Shown here piece by piece: positions 22,888 to 29,431 of a stretch of 64,000 nt of DNA. The notes below the pieces were generated by a model. That model did not search any database, was not told the origin of the DNA, and saw only the letters and a list, made by a program, of their open reading frames with translations. The number at the start of each line of letters is the position of its first letter. Position 1 is the stretch's first letter. Both the position numbers and the translations under genes were made by a program. Source of the DNA: Prosthecodimorpha staleyi (GTDB taxonomy: Bacteria; Pseudomonadota; Alphaproteobacteria; Rhizobiales; Ancalomicrobiaceae); contig NZ_JAHHZF010000001.1 in the NCBI RefSeq assembly GCF_018729455.1, forward strand, positions 248,001 to 312,000, written 5' to 3'.

Positions 22888-24849
22888 TCAAGGCTTCGCC
22901 CCCGCCGTCCATTTCAGCCACTGCACGAAGGAGCGCAAGGGGCCCATCCTCCTCAGGCCCGGCGCGCGGGCCGCGGCGAGGTGGTCGGTGCTCCGCAGCG
23001 CGGCATATTGCAGGCCGAGAAAGCTGTCGACCGCCGCATAGGGGCCGTTCTGGGTAACGACGCCGGCGGCGTAGACCCGGCCGGGGCCGTTGCGCAGCGC
23101 CGCGATCTCGAACTGGTTGGTCACGGCGATGCCGGCGAGACGCTGGTCCGGCCCGCTGCCGGTCGCCTTGTTGCGCGGCGGGTTGTAGCGCGCCAGCAGG
23201 TCCTTGAGGAAGGGCGAGGAGGTCACGTCGGCAATCAGGCCGGTGCAGTCGATGACATAGTCGGCGACCAGGTCGAGCGTCTCGGAAAAGGGCCCCTTGG
23301 CGACGATCTCGGTGACCACCTTGTCGTTCTTCAGCCGCATCTTCTTCACTTCGCCGAAATAGATGCGGTACCAGCCCTCGCGCTTGCCGGCCGACAGGAT
23401 GGCCATCCAGTCGGCGCGTTCGGCGGTCGTCGTCCCGCCCCAGGCGGACAGGAGTTCGACCCGCTTCTCCGGCGCCGCCGCCTCCAGGAGCCGGCGATAC
23501 TCGCCGCCCCAGCAGGCCTTCGGCCAGTTGAACGGCTGCATCTCGACATCGTAGCCGACCGCCCGGCGGGCGAGATCGAACGCGGCCCCCGCCTCGACCG
23601 GCCCGCGCATCAGATGCAGCACGCCGATCTGCTTGTTGCGCTGGCGCGTCTCGTGGAGCCGCTGCAGGACGCGCGAGGCGACGATGCCGCGGCCGCGCAC
23701 CACCACCGTGCCGCCGCGCTCGGCCAGCGCCCGGTAGATGCCCTCATGCTCCTCATAGGCGTTGACGACCCGGTTGGAGCCGCGGTTCTGACGCTTGAAG
23801 GACTGCAGGTCGTCGAGATAGCGCGTGGTCGGATAGCCGGTCGCCAATTGCACCACGCGGGCGAGAAAATAGCGGTCGCGGTCGCTGTCGCCGGCCTGGT
23901 CGGCGGGGATCTTGTAGGCCAGCACGTAGCGGCCGTCATCCGTCTTGCGCAGCGCGATGGCACGGCCGAAGGTCAGCATTTGCCGCCAGCCGATGCGCAG
24001 CTCCTCGCGATCGAGCGCGGCATAGACGTCGTCGGCGCGCGGCGTATAGGTCTCCGCCAGAGTCGGCTCGCCGAACACCTTCAGGATGTGCCGGAAGCCG
24101 CGGATGTCGCCGCCCTTGACCTCGCGCCAGGTCTCGCGCAGCGCGTAGCCGGGAAAGCCCCAGAGATTGTCGGGCGTCGAGATCGAGTTGGAGCGGATGC
24201 GCTCGCGGCCCGGAATCTGCGAATTCTCGCAATATTCCTTCCATTTTTCGTAGCAGCTCGCGGTCACCCCGATGACGCGGATGCGGTCCTGCGGCACGCC
24301 CCAGATGCGCAGATGGTCGACCCAGACGAAGGAACCGATGCCGCCGCCGACGGCCAGATAGTCGGTCTCCCCGGCGAGCTTGCCGCTGGCGACGATTTCG
24401 GCGACCGGCACCGTGTCGCGCGCGAACAGCCGGCCGGGAAATTCCGATTCGAGCCACGGCACCGGGTCGGCCGTGCCGGCGCGCGGCACCGGCGCGGTGC
24501 GTTCGTCGTCGGTCTCGACCGCCGGCGCCTCCTCGGCGAAGTCGCCCGGCTCGTAGACCAGCGTGAAGATGCCGACCACCAAGGGCACGCCGGCGAGCCA
24601 TTCGTACCAGTGCTTGCCGAGCGGCGTCTCACCGAGCCTGGTGCCGTTGGTCGAGCCCGAATCGGTCACGAACAGCCGGCCGCCCGACAGCCGGACCGCG
24701 GCGTGGCGGCGCGAGACCGAGCCGTCGACGAGCGGAATCTCGACCTTCGCCTGTTCGCGGCCGATCTGGTACTCGCCCTCGTCGGCGAGGCGAAACCGGG
24801 CGAGCGTCCTTCCGCCGGCGTCGCGGACCTGGATCTCGATCGGCATCAT
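22888..24849 (-). CDS. FHA domain fused to an FAD/NAD(P)-binding oxidoreductase-like protein
   Basis: 653 residues. The N-terminal ~100 residues are a full FHA domain: QIGREQAKVEIPL near 28-40, GSVSRRHAAV with the SxxH phosphothreonine contact, and DSGSTNGTRLG. A linker of ~50 residues leads to a Rossmann dinucleotide-binding start, YLAVGGGIGSFVWVDHLRIWG, near residue 170. Further along are ARVVQLATGYPTTRY and, near the C-terminus, DYVIDCTGLIADV and GRVYAAGVV, typical of flavoprotein monooxygenase/oxidoreductase folds. The substrate is unknown. A hallmark phosphopeptide reader fused to a flavoenzyme is unusual. It lies 3 bases from the upstream FHA-zinc ribbon gene. Confidence 0.85.
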   Translation of the reverse strand: MMPIEIQVRDAGGRTLARFRLADEGEYQIGREQAKVEIPLVDGSVSRRHAAVRLSGGRLFVTDSGSTNGTRLGETPLGKHWYEWLAGVPLVVGIFTLVYEPGDFAEEAPAVETDDERTAPVPRAGTADPVPWLESEFPGRLFARDTVPVAEIVASGKLAGETDYLAVGGGIGSFVWVDHLRIWGVPQDRIRVIGVTASCYEKWKEYCENSQIPGRERIRSNSISTPDNLWGFPGYALRETWREVKGGDIRGFRHILKVFGEPTLAETYTPRADDVYAALDREELRIGWRQMLTFGRAIALRKTDDGRYVLAYKIPADQAGDSDRDRYFLARVVQLATGYPTTRYLDDLQSFKRQNRGSNRVVNAYEEHEGIYRALAERGGTVVVRGRGIVASRVLQRLHETRQRNKQIGVLHLMRGPVEAGAAFDLARRAVGYDVEMQPFNWPKACWGGEYRRLLEAAAPEKRVELLSAWGGTTTAERADWMAILSAGKREGWYRIYFGEVKKMRLKNDKVVTEIVAKGPFSETLDLVADYVIDCTGLIADVTSSPFLKDLLARYNPPRNKATGSGPDQRLAGIAVTNQFEIAALRNGPGRVYAAGVVTQNGPYAAVDSFLGLQYAALRSTDHLAAARAPGLRRMGPLRSFVQWLKWTAGAKP

Positions 24850-24852
24850 GGC

Positions 24853-25626
24853 TCAGGTCTTCCCGCGCACGATGCGGGTGGCGCCGAACAGACGGGTGCC
24901 GCAGAGGCGGCAATTGTCGCCGCGGTCGTACTCGTTCAGCACCTGGCAGGTCGGATTCTCGCAGACGATGGCCGGCTGGCCGACCGGATGCACCTCGAAA
25001 CGGTGGTCGCCGAGCTCGATCGTATCGAGCGGCTGCAGGTAGAGTGCGTCCTGCTGCACGAAGCCGCGATCGAGATAGACCTGCAGGCGCTCGGGGTTGG
25101 ACAGGACCGCAAAGGTCGGCTCGCTCTCGTCGTAGTAGAAGATCAGCGCCAGCTTGTCGGCCAGCCGGGTCGCGTCGATGCGCGCCAGATTGGCGACCTG
25201 CTCGATCGCCAGCCGATGGCCGTCGCCATAGGCGAGCAGCGCGCCGCCCGGGACCAGCGGGAATTCACCGCGCGGGCGCAGGTCGGCGCGGTCGACGGCC
25301 AATACCATCAGTTGCGCCGGCTCCAGAACCTTCAGCTCGAAATCGAAGATGCGGAAGCTGTCGCCGGTCTCCAGCGGCACCCGCTCGCTCGCCTTCAGCG
25401 AACGGCCGCGATAGTGCGTGGCATTCTGGTTCAGCGCGCGATTGATCAGGACCGGCTTGCCGTCCTCCTCGCCGATCTCGACATGCAGCCGCGAGATGGC
25501 CCGATTCTCGGGGTCGAGTTGGATGTCGCAGGTCGCACCGCGCCCGATCCGCACCGGCAGCATGTAGCCGCGGCGCATGGTTTCGGCAGTGCGGTGATTG
25601 ACGACTTCGATGGCGACCGTGGGCAT
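24853..25626 (-). CDS. FHA domain protein with C-terminal zinc ribbon
   Basis: 257 residues from the ATG at 25626; a further 33 upstream codons would overlap the probable promoter and look non-coding. The N-terminal FHA domain has VRIGRGATCDIQLDPENRAI and SRLHVEI. It is followed by ~100 residues of unclear fold, then a C-terminal rubredoxin-like/zinc ribbon: CENPTC near 225 and CRLCG near 245. It is the first gene of the minus-strand operon that continues with FHA-FAD, the 4-TM protein and TauE/SafE. Confidence 0.85.
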   Translation of the reverse strand: MPTVAIEVVNHRTAETMRRGYMLPVRIGRGATCDIQLDPENRAISRLHVEIGEEDGKPVLINRALNQNATHYRGRSLKASERVPLETGDSFRIFDFELKVLEPAQLMVLAVDRADLRPRGEFPLVPGGALLAYGDGHRLAIEQVANLARIDATRLADKLALIFYYDESEPTFAVLSNPERLQVYLDRGFVQQDALYLQPLDTIELGDHRFEVHPVGQPAIVCENPTCQVLNEYDRGDNCRLCGTRLFGATRIVRGKT

Positions 25627-25660
25627 CGGATCACTATGGCGCGATTGGGGATTTTCCGTC

Positions 25661-25688
25661 AGTGTGCACGCCGCCGAGGGGCTGTCAA
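25661..25688 (-). promoter_or_regulatory. Putative sigma-70 promoter of the FHA operon
   Basis: On the minus strand, TTGACA (25688-25683) and CACACT (25666-25661) are separated by 16 bases, about 35 bases before the ATG at 25626. The -35 is a perfect consensus; the -10 is weak, as is common in alphaproteobacteria. Confidence 0.5.
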
Positions 25689-26479
25689 GGCGCACAATAT
25701 TGGTGTCTGCCCCAATTGCGGCCATATTATATTCACCCCCTCATGGTGACAGCCTGAATAGGCCGTTCATCCTCCAGTCATCTGCTGGGCATTCGCCGGC
25801 CGACCGCAGCCGATAGACTTTACGGGCAGCGGAGAGATGGGCCGGATCGAACGATTTATTCGTTCTTGAGGGGCAGAGGAATCATCGATCGCCGATCTGC
25901 GATACGATCACGACTTCGCGATATTGCCCGCGCGCCGATCCCATCTCCCCGCAACGCCGCTTCCCGGGTGCTGCGACTCGAATTCTCCACCGGCGCGGAG
26001 CCCCTTGCCCGCCGCCGACCCCGCCCGCCGCCCCGGCATGCCCGCCGCCGGCACGCCGTCCGCCCCGGTCGACCCGGCACCCTCCCGGTCGGCCTCATGC
26101 CGCCGCTTCGTTCGCCGCGCGGTCAACGCGCTCCCCGAAGGCGCTGCACCTCAACCGCTGCCGGCCGCTGCGGCACCGATAGGCCGCCCCGCCCCCGCCC
26201 CGGCTCCGGCTGCCGCGGACCGGTTCCGCGCCCGCCCGGTGCAATGCCGGCAAACGGAATAAGCCCCCGATCGCGGCCGGTTTCGCCGCTCCGACCCGGC
26301 CCTCGGGGCCAGCCGGCTGGGGACGACGCCGAGAAACGCGCATCCCCTGCATCGGGACGCTTGAAATGCCCGAGCCCCGGTGTTACCACACCCCCGCTTC
26401 GCCGCACCCGGCCCCGCGCCGGCCCGCAAGCGCCCGGTTCTCCAAGGAGAATCGTCCGCAAGGGAAAGGCCGAGCCCGT
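25689..26479. other. Intergenic sequence between the FHA operon and tRNA-Gln
   Basis: About 790 bases. The first ~200 are AT-richer, around the FHA operon promoter. The rest is very GC-rich, with Arg/Pro/Ala-type open frames on both strands that I do not accept as genes. No terminator or repeat was seen. Confidence 0.45.
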
Positions 26480-26553
26480 TGGGGGATAGTTCAACGGTAG
26501 AACAGCGGACTCTGACTCCGTTAATCTTGGTTCGAATCCAGGTCCCCCAGCCA
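26480..26553 (+). tRNA. tRNA-Gln (anticodon CTG)
   Basis: A 74-base cloverleaf with encoded CCA. The acceptor stem is TGGGGGA / TCCCCCA, the anticodon stem-loop GCGGA-CTCTGAC-TCCGT has CTG at the centre, and the T-arm has GGTTCGAATCC. It borders the low-GC accessory patch with the reverse transcriptase, a common situation for integrated elements. Confidence 0.96.
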
Positions 26554-27146
26554 CTTCATTGAAATTGTTAGATTTCAGAAACTTAACTTGGGTTGCATGC
26601 CTCATTTCGTACCTTAGTTTGTATTTCAAACCGGCTATTTCATCAGGTCTCAGTTTTTGCTCGCTCTGTGATCTTGATAGCGGATCGGCATTGAGCCTCC
26701 GTCTGCGCCTTCGAGGACTGTGGTGCGGCGAAAAGGTAGAGTACCCGGCGCAGAATTGCGCGGCCGATTAAATCCGAGCGTCTTCGCTCATTCCCCCTCC
26801 GAATGCGCGCGCCGCATCAGGCTACGATACCGAGGTTGGCCAACGTCGCTCTGTTCGCCATCGATCGGACGCAGTTCAGGACGAGTGTTTAACGGCTACC
26901 AGGTTCGAACGTAGATAGTAGGTCGTCGGCAATGTCGAGGCGAGTTACGCGGCCGTAGTCGTCAAGAAAATAGGAGCCCACCCCATAAAAATAATCATTC
27001 AGCCAACTCACGCAGTGCGCTGCGGGATGGCGAAATCAAGAAGGTCACCTGGATGACTTTCCGTGATGTGTTGACGTCTTGTCGGATCCCGTTTCCCCTT
27101 ACCCTCATCTCCAAGAGATGCGTCAACAAAGTAAAGATTAAAAATC
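26554..27146. other. Low-GC stretch between tRNA-Gln and the reverse transcriptase gene
   Basis: About 590 bases, distinctly richer in A/T than the chromosome average. A 70-codon open frame directly after the tRNA (from 26559) has no ribosome binding site and no recognisable similarity, so I do not call it. No copy of the tRNA 3' end was found by eye as an attachment repeat within the patch. Confidence 0.45.
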
Positions 27147-28421
27147 TTAATACCCCGATATGACCGGATACCTACCGCGCGCCCCTTTCTGCTTCGCCTT
27201 TCGTGGGGTGGCGGAGTTGCGGCTTGGCTCCATACCAAAAAACTCCCTTTGTCTGACTCTCAGTTTATCCAACGCATCCGGGCCGAACGAGTGTCTAAAA
27301 AGCGCTCTAACAACTGCATACGGAGCATCCGCCAGAAATTTCTCGATTTCGTCGAAATTAGACGCGCAAGCGTATGCAGATTTATAGCCTATCGCCATAT
27401 CCTGCACCCTTTGTATTATCTGGAAGAAGGTGATTTTTTGTTTTAAAAGAAAGTCAACATTGGAGTAATCATTAATTCGATTTCGTATTTTCTCAATCTG
27501 AGTTGAAGTTATAACGAGGCTATAATCATCCGATCGCTTGCGACGTAGCTCTAAACCTAAAAATTCAACCGGGCAGAAAGGATCGGCAATCGAGGTCTTC
27601 GATTCGCTCCGACCAAGTTCTGGCAATGAAAGTCCGATCGCGGAAAGTATCGATGTAGCATGTTCGTGGGCGGCCCTGCACTCCACCTCCGTGCTACATA
27701 GCACAATGAAGTCGTCTGCATAGCGGACCATTTTGAACCCAAGCCTAGTCATCTCTTCGTCGAATTCACGCAATACGAAGTTTGCGAGCACGGGCGAGAG
27801 TGGCATTCCCTGTCGAATCCCGATGCCTTTTTTTATCCCACAGCTAGCGAGTATTCTGGCCGTCCTGCTATCGGCTTCCTTGCACTCACAACCAATAGCG
27901 TCAGCAAGGAGGAGGTCTAAACTTCTTACTCTCAAAGCCTTAGAAAGATTTTCTGTCAACTCCGCCCGTCGCACGTTGTCAAAAAAAGAACTTATGTCTG
28001 ATTTGTACGCCCACGGGAAGGAATTTCGGAGCTTAACAGCCCTGTCTCTGGCAGCCGAAGCGCCCCTGCCTTTAATAAATCCGAAGCTCACCTCGTTGTT
28101 GATCCTAAGGCGCGGAAGCTCTGCGAGATATCTACAGAGAATTCGTTGGACAATTCGATCCTGAACTGTAGGAATACAAATAACTCGCCATTTGCCATTC
28201 GGTTTTGAAACAAATGCTGGCTTAAGAGCCGTGAATCTATAGGTATCTCGGATGTCAGCGCAAAGCCGATTTAAGTAAACAGTCTTATTTTTCTCAAAGT
28301 CCTGGACAGTGATGCCATCTACCCCCGACGACTGCTGGGAGCGCGCTTCACTGTAAAAGCTTTTCCACGCTTCTATGACAGATTGCTTTGAAAATAAACG
28401 CTCAAGAGTCGAGCTTGACAT
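27147..28421 (-). CDS. Stand-alone reverse transcriptase, possibly antiviral (DRT/group II-like)
   Basis: 424 residues. The RT core shows GVDGITVQDF near 33-42, RVICIPTVQDRIVQ near 79-92, motif A SDISSFFD (Asp142), GIRQGMPLSPVLAN near 201-214 and the catalytic YADD at 234-237. The QG-x-x-x-SP motif and RT0-like N-terminus resemble group II intron and related RTs. No maturase X domain with HNH is visible; the last ~110 residues are a helical, basic tail. Codon use is far more A/T-rich than its neighbours, indicating transfer. The start ATG lies inside the 3' end of the upstream small ORF (20-base overlap). Lone RTs of this size often act in phage defence; that role is inference here. Confidence 0.85.
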   Translation of the reverse strand: MSSSTLERLFSKQSVIEAWKSFYSEARSQQSSGVDGITVQDFEKNKTVYLNRLCADIRDTYRFTALKPAFVSKPNGKWRVICIPTVQDRIVQRILCRYLAELPRLRINNEVSFGFIKGRGASAARDRAVKLRNSFPWAYKSDISSFFDNVRRAELTENLSKALRVRSLDLLLADAIGCECKEADSRTARILASCGIKKGIGIRQGMPLSPVLANFVLREFDEEMTRLGFKMVRYADDFIVLCSTEVECRAAHEHATSILSAIGLSLPELGRSESKTSIADPFCPVEFLGLELRRKRSDDYSLVITSTQIEKIRNRINDYSNVDFLLKQKITFFQIIQRVQDMAIGYKSAYACASNFDEIEKFLADAPYAVVRALFRHSFGPDALDKLRVRQREFFGMEPSRNSATPRKAKQKGARGRYPVISGY

Positions 28422-28803
28422 TTAAGTGCAGTCCGCCGCCCGTGCTGAATTGCCCCCACCGGGCGGCCATTGCAAGATCGGCGTCGTGGCCTAAGCCTCG
28501 CCGCCCCAACACCCTCTGCGAACGTGTCGCACAAGATGTCATCTCCAGCTCGATGCCATGTTTCGGAGAACGCTCAGTAGAGCATTCGCCAACACCGACT
28601 GAAGTATCGCCAACACGCAGCCAGACCAAGACGCCCGTGCCCTGCGAGTTGCCCACGGCAAGTCGAAATTCCGCAGTCTCACTGTACAGCAAAATAGCCG
28701 ACACTGCAAGCATTACTGCAGATCCCGCCCACCGGGAGAGGTCGCCCCGATCCGGCGCGCTTTTGGTTCCCCGAGGACCACGCCTCGCCCCTGAAAATTG
28801 CAT
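28402..28803 (-). CDS. Small putative membrane protein translationally coupled to the reverse transcriptase
   Basis: 133 residues from the ATG at 28803, with an excellent ribosome binding site GGAGG six bases upstream. A hydrophobic stretch near residues 23-41 (RWAGSAVMLAVSAILLYSE) could span the membrane; the rest is polar with four cysteines or fewer. Its stop lies 20 bases inside the reverse transcriptase gene. Codons 72-109 are contained in the 116-bp direct repeat at 28476-28591. No family was recognised. Alternatively the region may work as a non-coding RNA for the RT and the frame be incidental. Confidence 0.5.
   Translation of the reverse strand: MQFSGARRGPRGTKSAPDRGDLSRWAGSAVMLAVSAILLYSETAEFRLAVGNSQGTGVLVWLRVGDTSVGVGECSTERSPKHGIELEMTSCATRSQRVLGRRGLGHDADLAMAARWGQFSTGGGLHLNVKLDS
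28476..28591. repeat. 116-bp perfect direct repeat, copy 1
   Basis: Identical base for base to 28858-28973, 382 bases away in the same orientation. It begins GATCGGCGTCGTGGCC and ends AGCATTCGCCA; flanking bases differ on both sides. This copy lies within the small ORF upstream of the reverse transcriptase. Confidence 0.95.
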
Positions 28804-28804
28804 A

Positions 28805-28993
28805 CTAGCCTCCATTAAGCCGTTGGGGGGCATGGGGCCTGCGCTTTGTTGGCTGACGATCGGCGTCGTGGCCTAAGCCTCGCCGCCCCAACACCCTCTG
28901 CGAACGTGTCGCACAAGATGTCATCTCCAGCTCGATGCCATGTTTCGGAGAACGCTCAGTAGAGCATTCGCCACTGGCCAAAGGGCGATGCAA
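28805..28993 (-). CDS. Short ORF carrying the second copy of the repeat, doubtful
   Basis: 62 codons starting at an ATG at 28993 and stopping two bases before the start of the 133-residue ORF. Residues 8-45 are identical to codons 72-109 of that ORF because both contain the 116-bp repeat in the same frame. No clear ribosome binding site. It may be a duplicated fragment rather than a gene, or part of an RNA leader. Confidence 0.25.
   Translation of the reverse strand: MHRPLASGECSTERSPKHGIELEMTSCATRSQRVLGRRGLGHDADRQPTKRRPHAPQRLNGG
28858..28973. repeat. 116-bp perfect direct repeat, copy 2
   Basis: Second copy of the repeat described at 28476-28591. On the transcribed minus strand it comes first, in the leader of the small ORF/reverse transcriptase pair. 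Perfect identity means either recent duplication or active maintenance. Confidence 0.95.
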
Positions 28994-29266
28994 TCAGGTC
29001 CGAATCGCAACTCTCGCGGAACGTACCTAGCATCTGCGGTCCATAAGAGTGATCAGATCCAGTCAAGCCTCAGCCGGCGCCGCCGAGATGGTGTCCGGTA
29101 TGATCGATATGCGCAGACGGCCCGAATGCGATTTATTCTGCCTAGTCCACGAAACCGCACCGCGGCGAGTGCGCGAACTTCTTCGCCAGTACCCATTTTT
29201 CAGTATTGTTCATTTTACAATTTAGAAGATATTTGCGCACGGATGGTATTAGGCGATCGCTCTCAC

Positions 29267-29431
29267 TCACATCCTCCCGAATCCGCCCCGCCGCCCCCTA
29301 CGGCAGGCGTCCGAACAATACAGTACCTGGTCCCAGACCTTGCTCCACTTCTTGCGCCAGGTGAACGGGCGCTGGCAGACGGTGCAGGGCTTGGTCGGGA
29401 GGTTGGCCTTTTCGATGCGCTTCTTCTTCAT
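29267..29431 (-). CDS. DUF2256 zinc-ribbon-like protein
   Basis: 54 residues. Two cysteine pairs, CTVC near 16-19 and YCSDAC near 39-43, flank the family signature RPFTWRKKWSKVWDQV. DUF2256 proteins are small putative metal-binding proteins that occur beside, or fused to, FeS-type photolyases. The photolyase gene is 250 bases upstream on the same strand, matching that association. The function is unknown; it may assist the photolyase. Confidence 0.88.
   Translation of the reverse strand: MKKKRIEKANLPTKPCTVCQRPFTWRKKWSKVWDQVLYCSDACRRGRRGGFGRM

Follow-up and report, generated by a model that had tools for sequence, protein, structure and literature searches.

Among the closest described reverse transcriptase (RT) systems, DRT2 has its neo, which passages of PMC12039810 describe as recognized by a unit length divisible by three and by one frame without stops. 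In DRT10, composed of a UG17 RT, a noncoding RNA (ncRNA), and a SLATT protein, the cDNA is proposed to regulate the SLATT partner, as set out in part of PMC12632851. Here, we analyze an RT locus in the window, i.e., the whole 64,000-nucleotide stretch of DNA under study, together with its relatives, and compare its repeat-bearing upstream region with these systems.

The window RT resembles group II and G2L4 enzymes

The RT of the window (27147 to 28421, minus strand) has 424 residues and the motifs QGMPLSP and YADD, and RVT_1 is its only Pfam domain (6.6e-27). Maturase and HNH families were absent from the Pfam scan at an E value of ≤1, bearing out the stand-alone RT that an earlier note had read from this sequence. 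Its AlphaFold model (mean pLDDT, 87.5; low confidence for the last 23 residues, 402 to 424) can be read as an RT domain followed by C-terminal helices taken for the thumb. In a Foldseek search with this model, the GsI-IIC template-switching complex ranked first among solved structures. The nearest solved folds were those of G2L4 and GsI-IIC (TM-scores by query of 0.73 and 0.68, respectively, at 20 to 23% identity), with DRT9 and DRT2 ranking behind. The nearest sequence-profile neighbors were Cas6-RT-Cas1 and group II RTs. By these comparisons, the window RT resembles group II/G2L4 enzymes, not DRT2.

A place among the UG/DRT groups, as suggested by the earlier note, found no support. The best UG model, UG17, yielded 121.7 to 152.3 bits on the window RT and 10 relatives (141.6 bits, a partial match, on the window RT itself) and 125.5 to 160.7 bits on 9 of 10 other RTs taken as controls, Cas1-fused ones included, this control set being without a true UG17 protein. 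UG17 membership was dropped because the family scores fall within the range of these controls. The Drt2 model matched the window RT partially at 57.8 bits, and the NCBIfam Drt2 score of 45.2 lies far below the cutoff of 390 for a UG2-type RT (DRT2). The group II RT/maturase equivalog gave 172.1 against a cutoff of 300.

A repeat-bounded unit precedes the RT gene

The start of the RT gene overlaps by 20 nt a small ORF that runs from an ATG at 28803 to a TGA at 28402 (133 codons, minus strand) and carries a GGAGG ribosome-binding site (28809 to 28813, minus strand) 5 nt ahead of its ATG, in agreement with the earlier description. A second in-frame ATG at 28833 extends it to 143 codons. The two identical 116-bp repeats that had been assigned to the leader are indeed present (100% identity, 382 bp apart), but only the upstream copy, R1 (28858 to 28973, minus strand), lies in the leader and outside the small ORF, the other, R2 (28476 to 28591, minus strand), being the 3′ part of the small ORF itself. 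Between them lies a unique segment of 266 bp, X (28592 to 28857, minus strand), making an R+X unit of 382 bp. The small ORF starts in X, and its C-terminal part is encoded by R2; a hydrophobic segment encoded on the same minus strand (WAGSAVMLAVSAILLY) was picked by eye. Shortly after R1, the R-to-X frame ends at a TAG (28805 to 28807, minus strand) that abuts the ATG of the small ORF. The R-to-X junction of the window is thus a stop-restart (TAGTATG), with R1 out of frame with X.

The 609-nt stretch from 28402 to 29010 folds better than all of 20 shuffles (z, −3.6). The window small ORF, the only one scanned in this way, had no family match in Pfam, PADLOC, or NCBIfam, and no SLATT partner was found in it. 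The earlier note had proposed either a partner protein or a template RNA; the evidence favors both together, with a membrane-protein-like ORF and a structured leader forming one repeat-bounded unit.

Genomic context

The window element lies between a tRNA-Gln gene and a DUF2256 gene, in a stretch of lower GC content (0.44 to 0.62 in 300-base steps, compared with 0.58 to 0.77 in the flanks). The tRNA-Gln site (window 26480 to 29300) looks like an integration hotspot because the same flanks enclose ∼17.5 kb in a genome of the same genus (G001), where 51 bp of the tRNA 3′ end recur at the far side. An exact search of the window for the 25-base tRNA end matched only the tRNA itself, and no attachment repeat was seen. 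Two adjacent FHA-domain proteins are encoded at 22888 to 25725 (minus strand).

Ten neighbors of other family members were compared with Pfam. They included a type I restriction subunit (L041), a phage terminase (L020), and a putative AbiC (L039; 23.9 bits against 22), the remaining ones being integrase, methylase, or housekeeping genes or unmatched. On the L017 plasmid, DarT and restriction genes are annotated nearby. In two Acinetobacter loci (L016:4806-4890 and L036:3003-3089, both on the minus strand), the repeat pair is preceded at ∼0.3 to 0.5 kb by C4 antisense RNA (RF01695), known from phages P1 and P7. Downstream of the Acetobacter RT, an annotated DNA-damage-inducible gene holds a long 10-bp tandem array (L014:8050-8370).

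The repeat pair recurs in a rare RT family

Scanning genomes with the single RT as query found nothing, and an alignment query was needed; with it, further members were obtained from viral contigs and from Alpha-, Beta-, and Gammaproteobacteria. Hosts of the family include Nitrosovibrio (L039), Nevskia (L038), and Methylophaga (L040). A tblastn search of plasmids (30 listed out of at least 5,000 matches) gave, among the matches listed, a few RTs at 32 to 37% identity and then a drop to group II RTs; plasmid hits H2, H5, and H8 were left out of the locus set, and the plasmids held no close DNA match to the window element. A tree of 58 RTs groups the 26 members of the family into a single clade (100/100), which L052, L059, and L069 are next to join (100/99). 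The family is rare. Matches were obtained in 9 of 149 Acinetobacter genomes at an E value of ≤1e-60, broken copies and fragments counted, and in 4 of 385 genomes of the window's own class at ≤1e-40, counting its own genome and one weak match. Other genome samples gave 1/369, 3/346, 3/150, and 1/300, the centre genome counted. The genome holding L037 has a second, split copy of the family RT (L211 and L212). In a literature search of openly accessible papers, we recognized nothing as this repeat-pair/RT layout.

Two repeats of 126 to 129 bp upstream of the RT were found unprompted in four Acinetobacter stretches, and none in an Acetobacter stretch. Across the family, such a pair precedes the RT in 23 of the 28 members retrieved whose upstream sequence could be used, the window counted, and is absent from L014, L040, L045, L046, and L117; the expected conservation of the upstream region in homologous loci is thereby confirmed. 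The 28 leave out L019, L043, L048, and L220 (upstream sequence too short), L211, L212, and L221 (RT fragments), and L119 (weak match, 140 bits), and the 23 include L217 despite its broken RT. In L217, the RT match has two stops and the repeat pair, like that of L215, is intact. The repeats are 99 to 150 bp long and start 302 to 453 bp apart, just upstream of the RT, with exactly two copies in each of the 23 stretches and a third in none. Their identity is 96.6 to 100% within a locus (23 loci) and 60 to 100% between loci in ten comparisons; in L016 and L215, for instance, R1 and R2 are 100% identical within each locus and 80.5% identical between the two. Being near-identical within a locus and divergent between loci, the repeats evolve together.

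As a control, we scanned 111 further RT loci, each preceded by ≥700 nt of sequence, and found a comparable pair in L069 alone (score, 83), which belongs to the sister group. Weaker repeats, possibly tandem arrays, lie upstream of four other RTs (L053, L060, L076, and L110; scores, 39 to 46). With 22 relatives carrying the pair, and with one control at 83 and four at 39 to 46, the window pair is not due to chance, and the layout of a repeat-bounded unit plus RT is, in our judgment, beyond reasonable doubt. The pair of the sister RT, from Mucilaginibacter (L069:3493-3919), measures 92 bp with a period of 335 and has no endless frame; a hydrophobic ORF seemingly begins inside its R. Single copies also occur next to open RTs: in L045 and L046, a lone R sits between the sequences that flank the L047 pair on its outer sides, and L040 has a single R-like stretch with 65.6% identity over 96 nt to L041.

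The repeated unit is mostly open in a single frame

The period (R+X) is divisible by three in 20 of the 23 loci, the exceptions being the window (382), L214 (395), and L218 (302). Reducing the count to 18 lineages, chosen by eye, leaves 16 divisible by three (binomial P = 1.7e-6); this set drops L018, L217, L037, L213, and L214, kin of L015, L215, and L036, and L214 is itself a frame exception. The entire period is stop free in exactly one forward frame at 19 of 23 loci, i.e., in 19 of the 20 with a divisible period, L041 having one stop. Stop-free frames on the reverse strand appeared in L020, L038, and L041 only. The product of the probabilities of finding no stop is 10^-7.3, a figure based on the first ATG of X, which is not always the likeliest start, and on lineages treated as independent. 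A period divisible by three and with one stop-free frame is therefore a property of the family (20/23 and 19/23, respectively) and not of the window copy.

Upstream of R1, an in-frame stop lies within 3 to 85 nt in 19 of the 20 loci with a divisible period (220 nt in L038); only 2 of 20 (L017 and L047) have an ATG in frame between this stop and R1, which argues against an ordinary ORF running through R1. Initiation within R1 may occur: 6 of 20 loci have an ATG inside R1, and 18 of 20 have an in-frame GTG or TTG in or before it. L020 and L039 have no in-frame ATG, GTG, or TTG ahead of X. A GGAGG-ATG with strict spacing is found early in X in 6 of 20 loci (L016, L017, L020, L042, L044, and L047), and L118 has one at 2-nt spacing. 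Given the upstream stops and the starts in X, the frame that crosses from R to the 5′ portion of X would serve no evident purpose without repetition of R and X.

The most hydrophobic 19-mer of this frame falls in X in all 16 lineages measured, a set to which the window and L218 do not belong. Its mean hydropathy is 1.39 to 2.98 (≥1.6 in 13/16), and the peak exceeds those of both other frames in 14 of 16. Over the period, dN/dS was 0.36 to 0.87 in 8 pairs that are not independent.

Repeat boundary, RNA fold, and promoters

In one clade (L015, L036, L037, L213, L038, L039, L041, L120, and L020), a GGC(A) motif is followed directly by a fixed site of 1 to 4 nt at which the two repeats are unlike. 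The letters at this site vary by lineage and are never equal in R1 and R2, and these loci show 0 to 3 further scattered differences. L047 and L216 have a differing triplet elsewhere in the repeat, and the two copies are identical in the window, L016, L017, L042, L044, L215, and L217. Such a fixed mismatch site is as expected from a jump boundary.

R folds with a z-score below −1 in 20 of 23 loci and of −2 or lower in 10. In the clade with the fixed mismatch site, the 5′ edge of R may form a hairpin, for which sequence comparison gives moderate evidence. There, 81% of cells are paired, against 29 to 39% when the structure is slid, and 5 of 500 shuffles reached the covariation score; changes on both sides of the hairpin were not above shuffles (107/500). 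The alignment had 11 rows, 3 of them R2 copies of loci already included, and the structure was chosen from these same sequences. Promoter signals upstream of R1 and inside X were weak, X doing no better than codon-preserving shuffles (Fisher P = 0.18).

Proposed mechanism and alternatives

Since both signs of the DRT2 neo occur in an RT family other than DRT2, we infer that template jumping from R1 to R2 lets the RT produce a tandem cDNA, which would code for a repeated membrane protein with a probable role as defense effector; we give this sequence-based reading a probability of about 0.55. The locus would be a two-part, retroelement-like module of RT and template unit R1-X-R2, in which the leader RNA is the presumed template. 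The RT would start in or near R2 and copy X and R1; the new cDNA end, complementary to R1, could then reanneal to the identical R2 for another round, yielding a tandem (X-R)n cDNA. Once made double stranded and transcribed, this cDNA would allow translation to begin at the start in X and pass, unstopped, across R to the following X, whereas the chromosomal form of the same ORF ends near R2. The product, a repeated single-pass membrane protein, would probably be harmful to the cell or its membrane and in this way protect the population from phage. The 382-bp unit of the window is not divisible by three; there, translation would terminate and reinitiate at TAGTATG in every unit, giving many short proteins instead of one endless chain. 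A role in phage defense is plausible, with hints from the gene neighborhoods.

Several observations run counter to the tandem-gene reading. The window, L214, and L218 break the frame rule, L041 has one stop, and the sister locus L069 has a pair without an endless frame. Possible start codons in or before R1 are common (GTG or TTG in 18/20, and ATG within R1 in 6/20), and the strict GGAGG-ATG of X is limited to 6/20. Both repeat junctions preexist in the chromosome, promoter signals for the unit were weak (P = 0.18), two-sided hairpin changes did not exceed shuffles (107/500), and in L040, L045, and L046 the RT is open although R, or a stretch like it, is present only once. The small ORF could also be expressed as it is. 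On this last point hinges an alternative that we deem rather unlikely, namely that the small ORF is an ordinary chromosomal partner (a toxin or membrane effector) and R a structured RNA template or guide in two copies, the cDNA regulating the partner without any concatemer gene. In its favor are the intact ORF, preceded by a ribosome-binding site in several relatives as in the window and ending near the RT start at many loci, the structure of R, and the DRT10 precedent (part of PMC12632851), but the stop-free frame shared from R1 to X and the period in multiples of three are left unexplained. Were R1 and R2 instead to recombine as a switch, deleting X (off) or amplifying it (on), with the RT only making or repairing R and identity kept by ordinary gene conversion, the single R on the outer flanks in L045 and L046 would be the expected deletion product, and the joint evolution of the repeats would follow. 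We hold this to be improbable, given that none of the 23 loci has three copies of R and that gene conversion alone predicts neither the fixed R1/R2 mismatch site nor the frame rule.

The divisible period and lack of stops would also arise if R1-X-R2 were a conventional single gene for an internally repeated protein, starting upstream of or in R1. The ATG before R1 in L017 and L047, those inside R1 (6/20), and the GTG or TTG codons (18/20) could serve it, but the in-frame stop that precedes R1 by at most 85 nt in 19 of 20 loci, the lack of a start before X in L020 and L039, the GGAGG-ATG starts in X at several loci, and the window R1, out of frame with X, make this very improbable. That the locus is what remains of a group II intron, or is a diversity-generating retroelement (DGR), is scarcely credible, even with a group II-like RT and with R1 and R2 of sizes similar to DGR template and variable repeats. 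Intron RNA around the RT, which the earlier note had named beforehand as speaking against its own reading, was found neither in the window stretch nor, at the gathering threshold, in 12 relatives. The R1/R2 mismatches are few, and the list of them, being free of adenine bias, led us to drop the DGR; the QGMPLSP motif of the RT differs from the DGR form.

Taking the tandem-gene reading further, the family may represent an undescribed, minimal-LTR-like class of retroelement, in which a terminally redundant R-X-R RNA and a group II-type RT would, by strand transfer through the repeats, produce a tandem membrane-protein gene. We put this forward tentatively, as somewhat short of an even chance. 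If it is true, the synthesis of genes by RTs originated independently of DRT2, and the boundary is written as a fixed mismatch within homogenized repeats. If the tandem-gene reading is right, gene making by reverse transcription is a strategy of unrelated RTs and not a DRT2 peculiarity, and proteins may stay hidden in repeat-bounded regions unread by annotation. The long genomic repeats open the jump mechanism to simple genetics, and a repeat pair with a period divisible by three and one stop-free frame is a sign that can be searched for in any genome.

Comparison with known systems

In the DGR layout, one repeat copy lies within a gene, at its 3′ end, and the second outside it, like R2 and R1 of the window. 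Unlike in DGRs, the differences here are not adenine specific, and repeat identity is 96.6 to 100%. GsI-IIC was solved as a template-switching complex and is, with G2L4, among the nearest folds, but identity to these enzymes is 20 to 23%, and the conserved repeat-flanked unit found here comes without intron RNA. With DRT10, as described in part of PMC12632851, the family would share a tandem-repeat cDNA made by realignment on a repeated template and a membrane-protein partner, both proposed here from sequence. DRT10 differs in its 9-nt repeat motif and its SLATT protein, and UG17 scores here are no higher than those of control RTs. The likeness to DRT2, as far as the relevant passages of PMC11100668 and PMC12039810 go, is one of design: the RT adjoins the template unit, head-to-tail repetition yields one stop-free frame, the unit length is divisible by three, and the start lies inside the unit. 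The RT, however, is of another clade, as the partial Drt2 match (57.8 bits) and the NCBIfam score (45.2 versus 390) indicate. A promoter formed across the repeat junction is a further DRT2 trait; the promoter signals of the present family were weak. The unit measures ∼120 nt in DRT2 and 302 to 453 nt here, where the repeats are long and both junctions are already chromosomal, and the frame lies on the RT strand here, whereas the DRT2 neo is opposite to its ncRNA.
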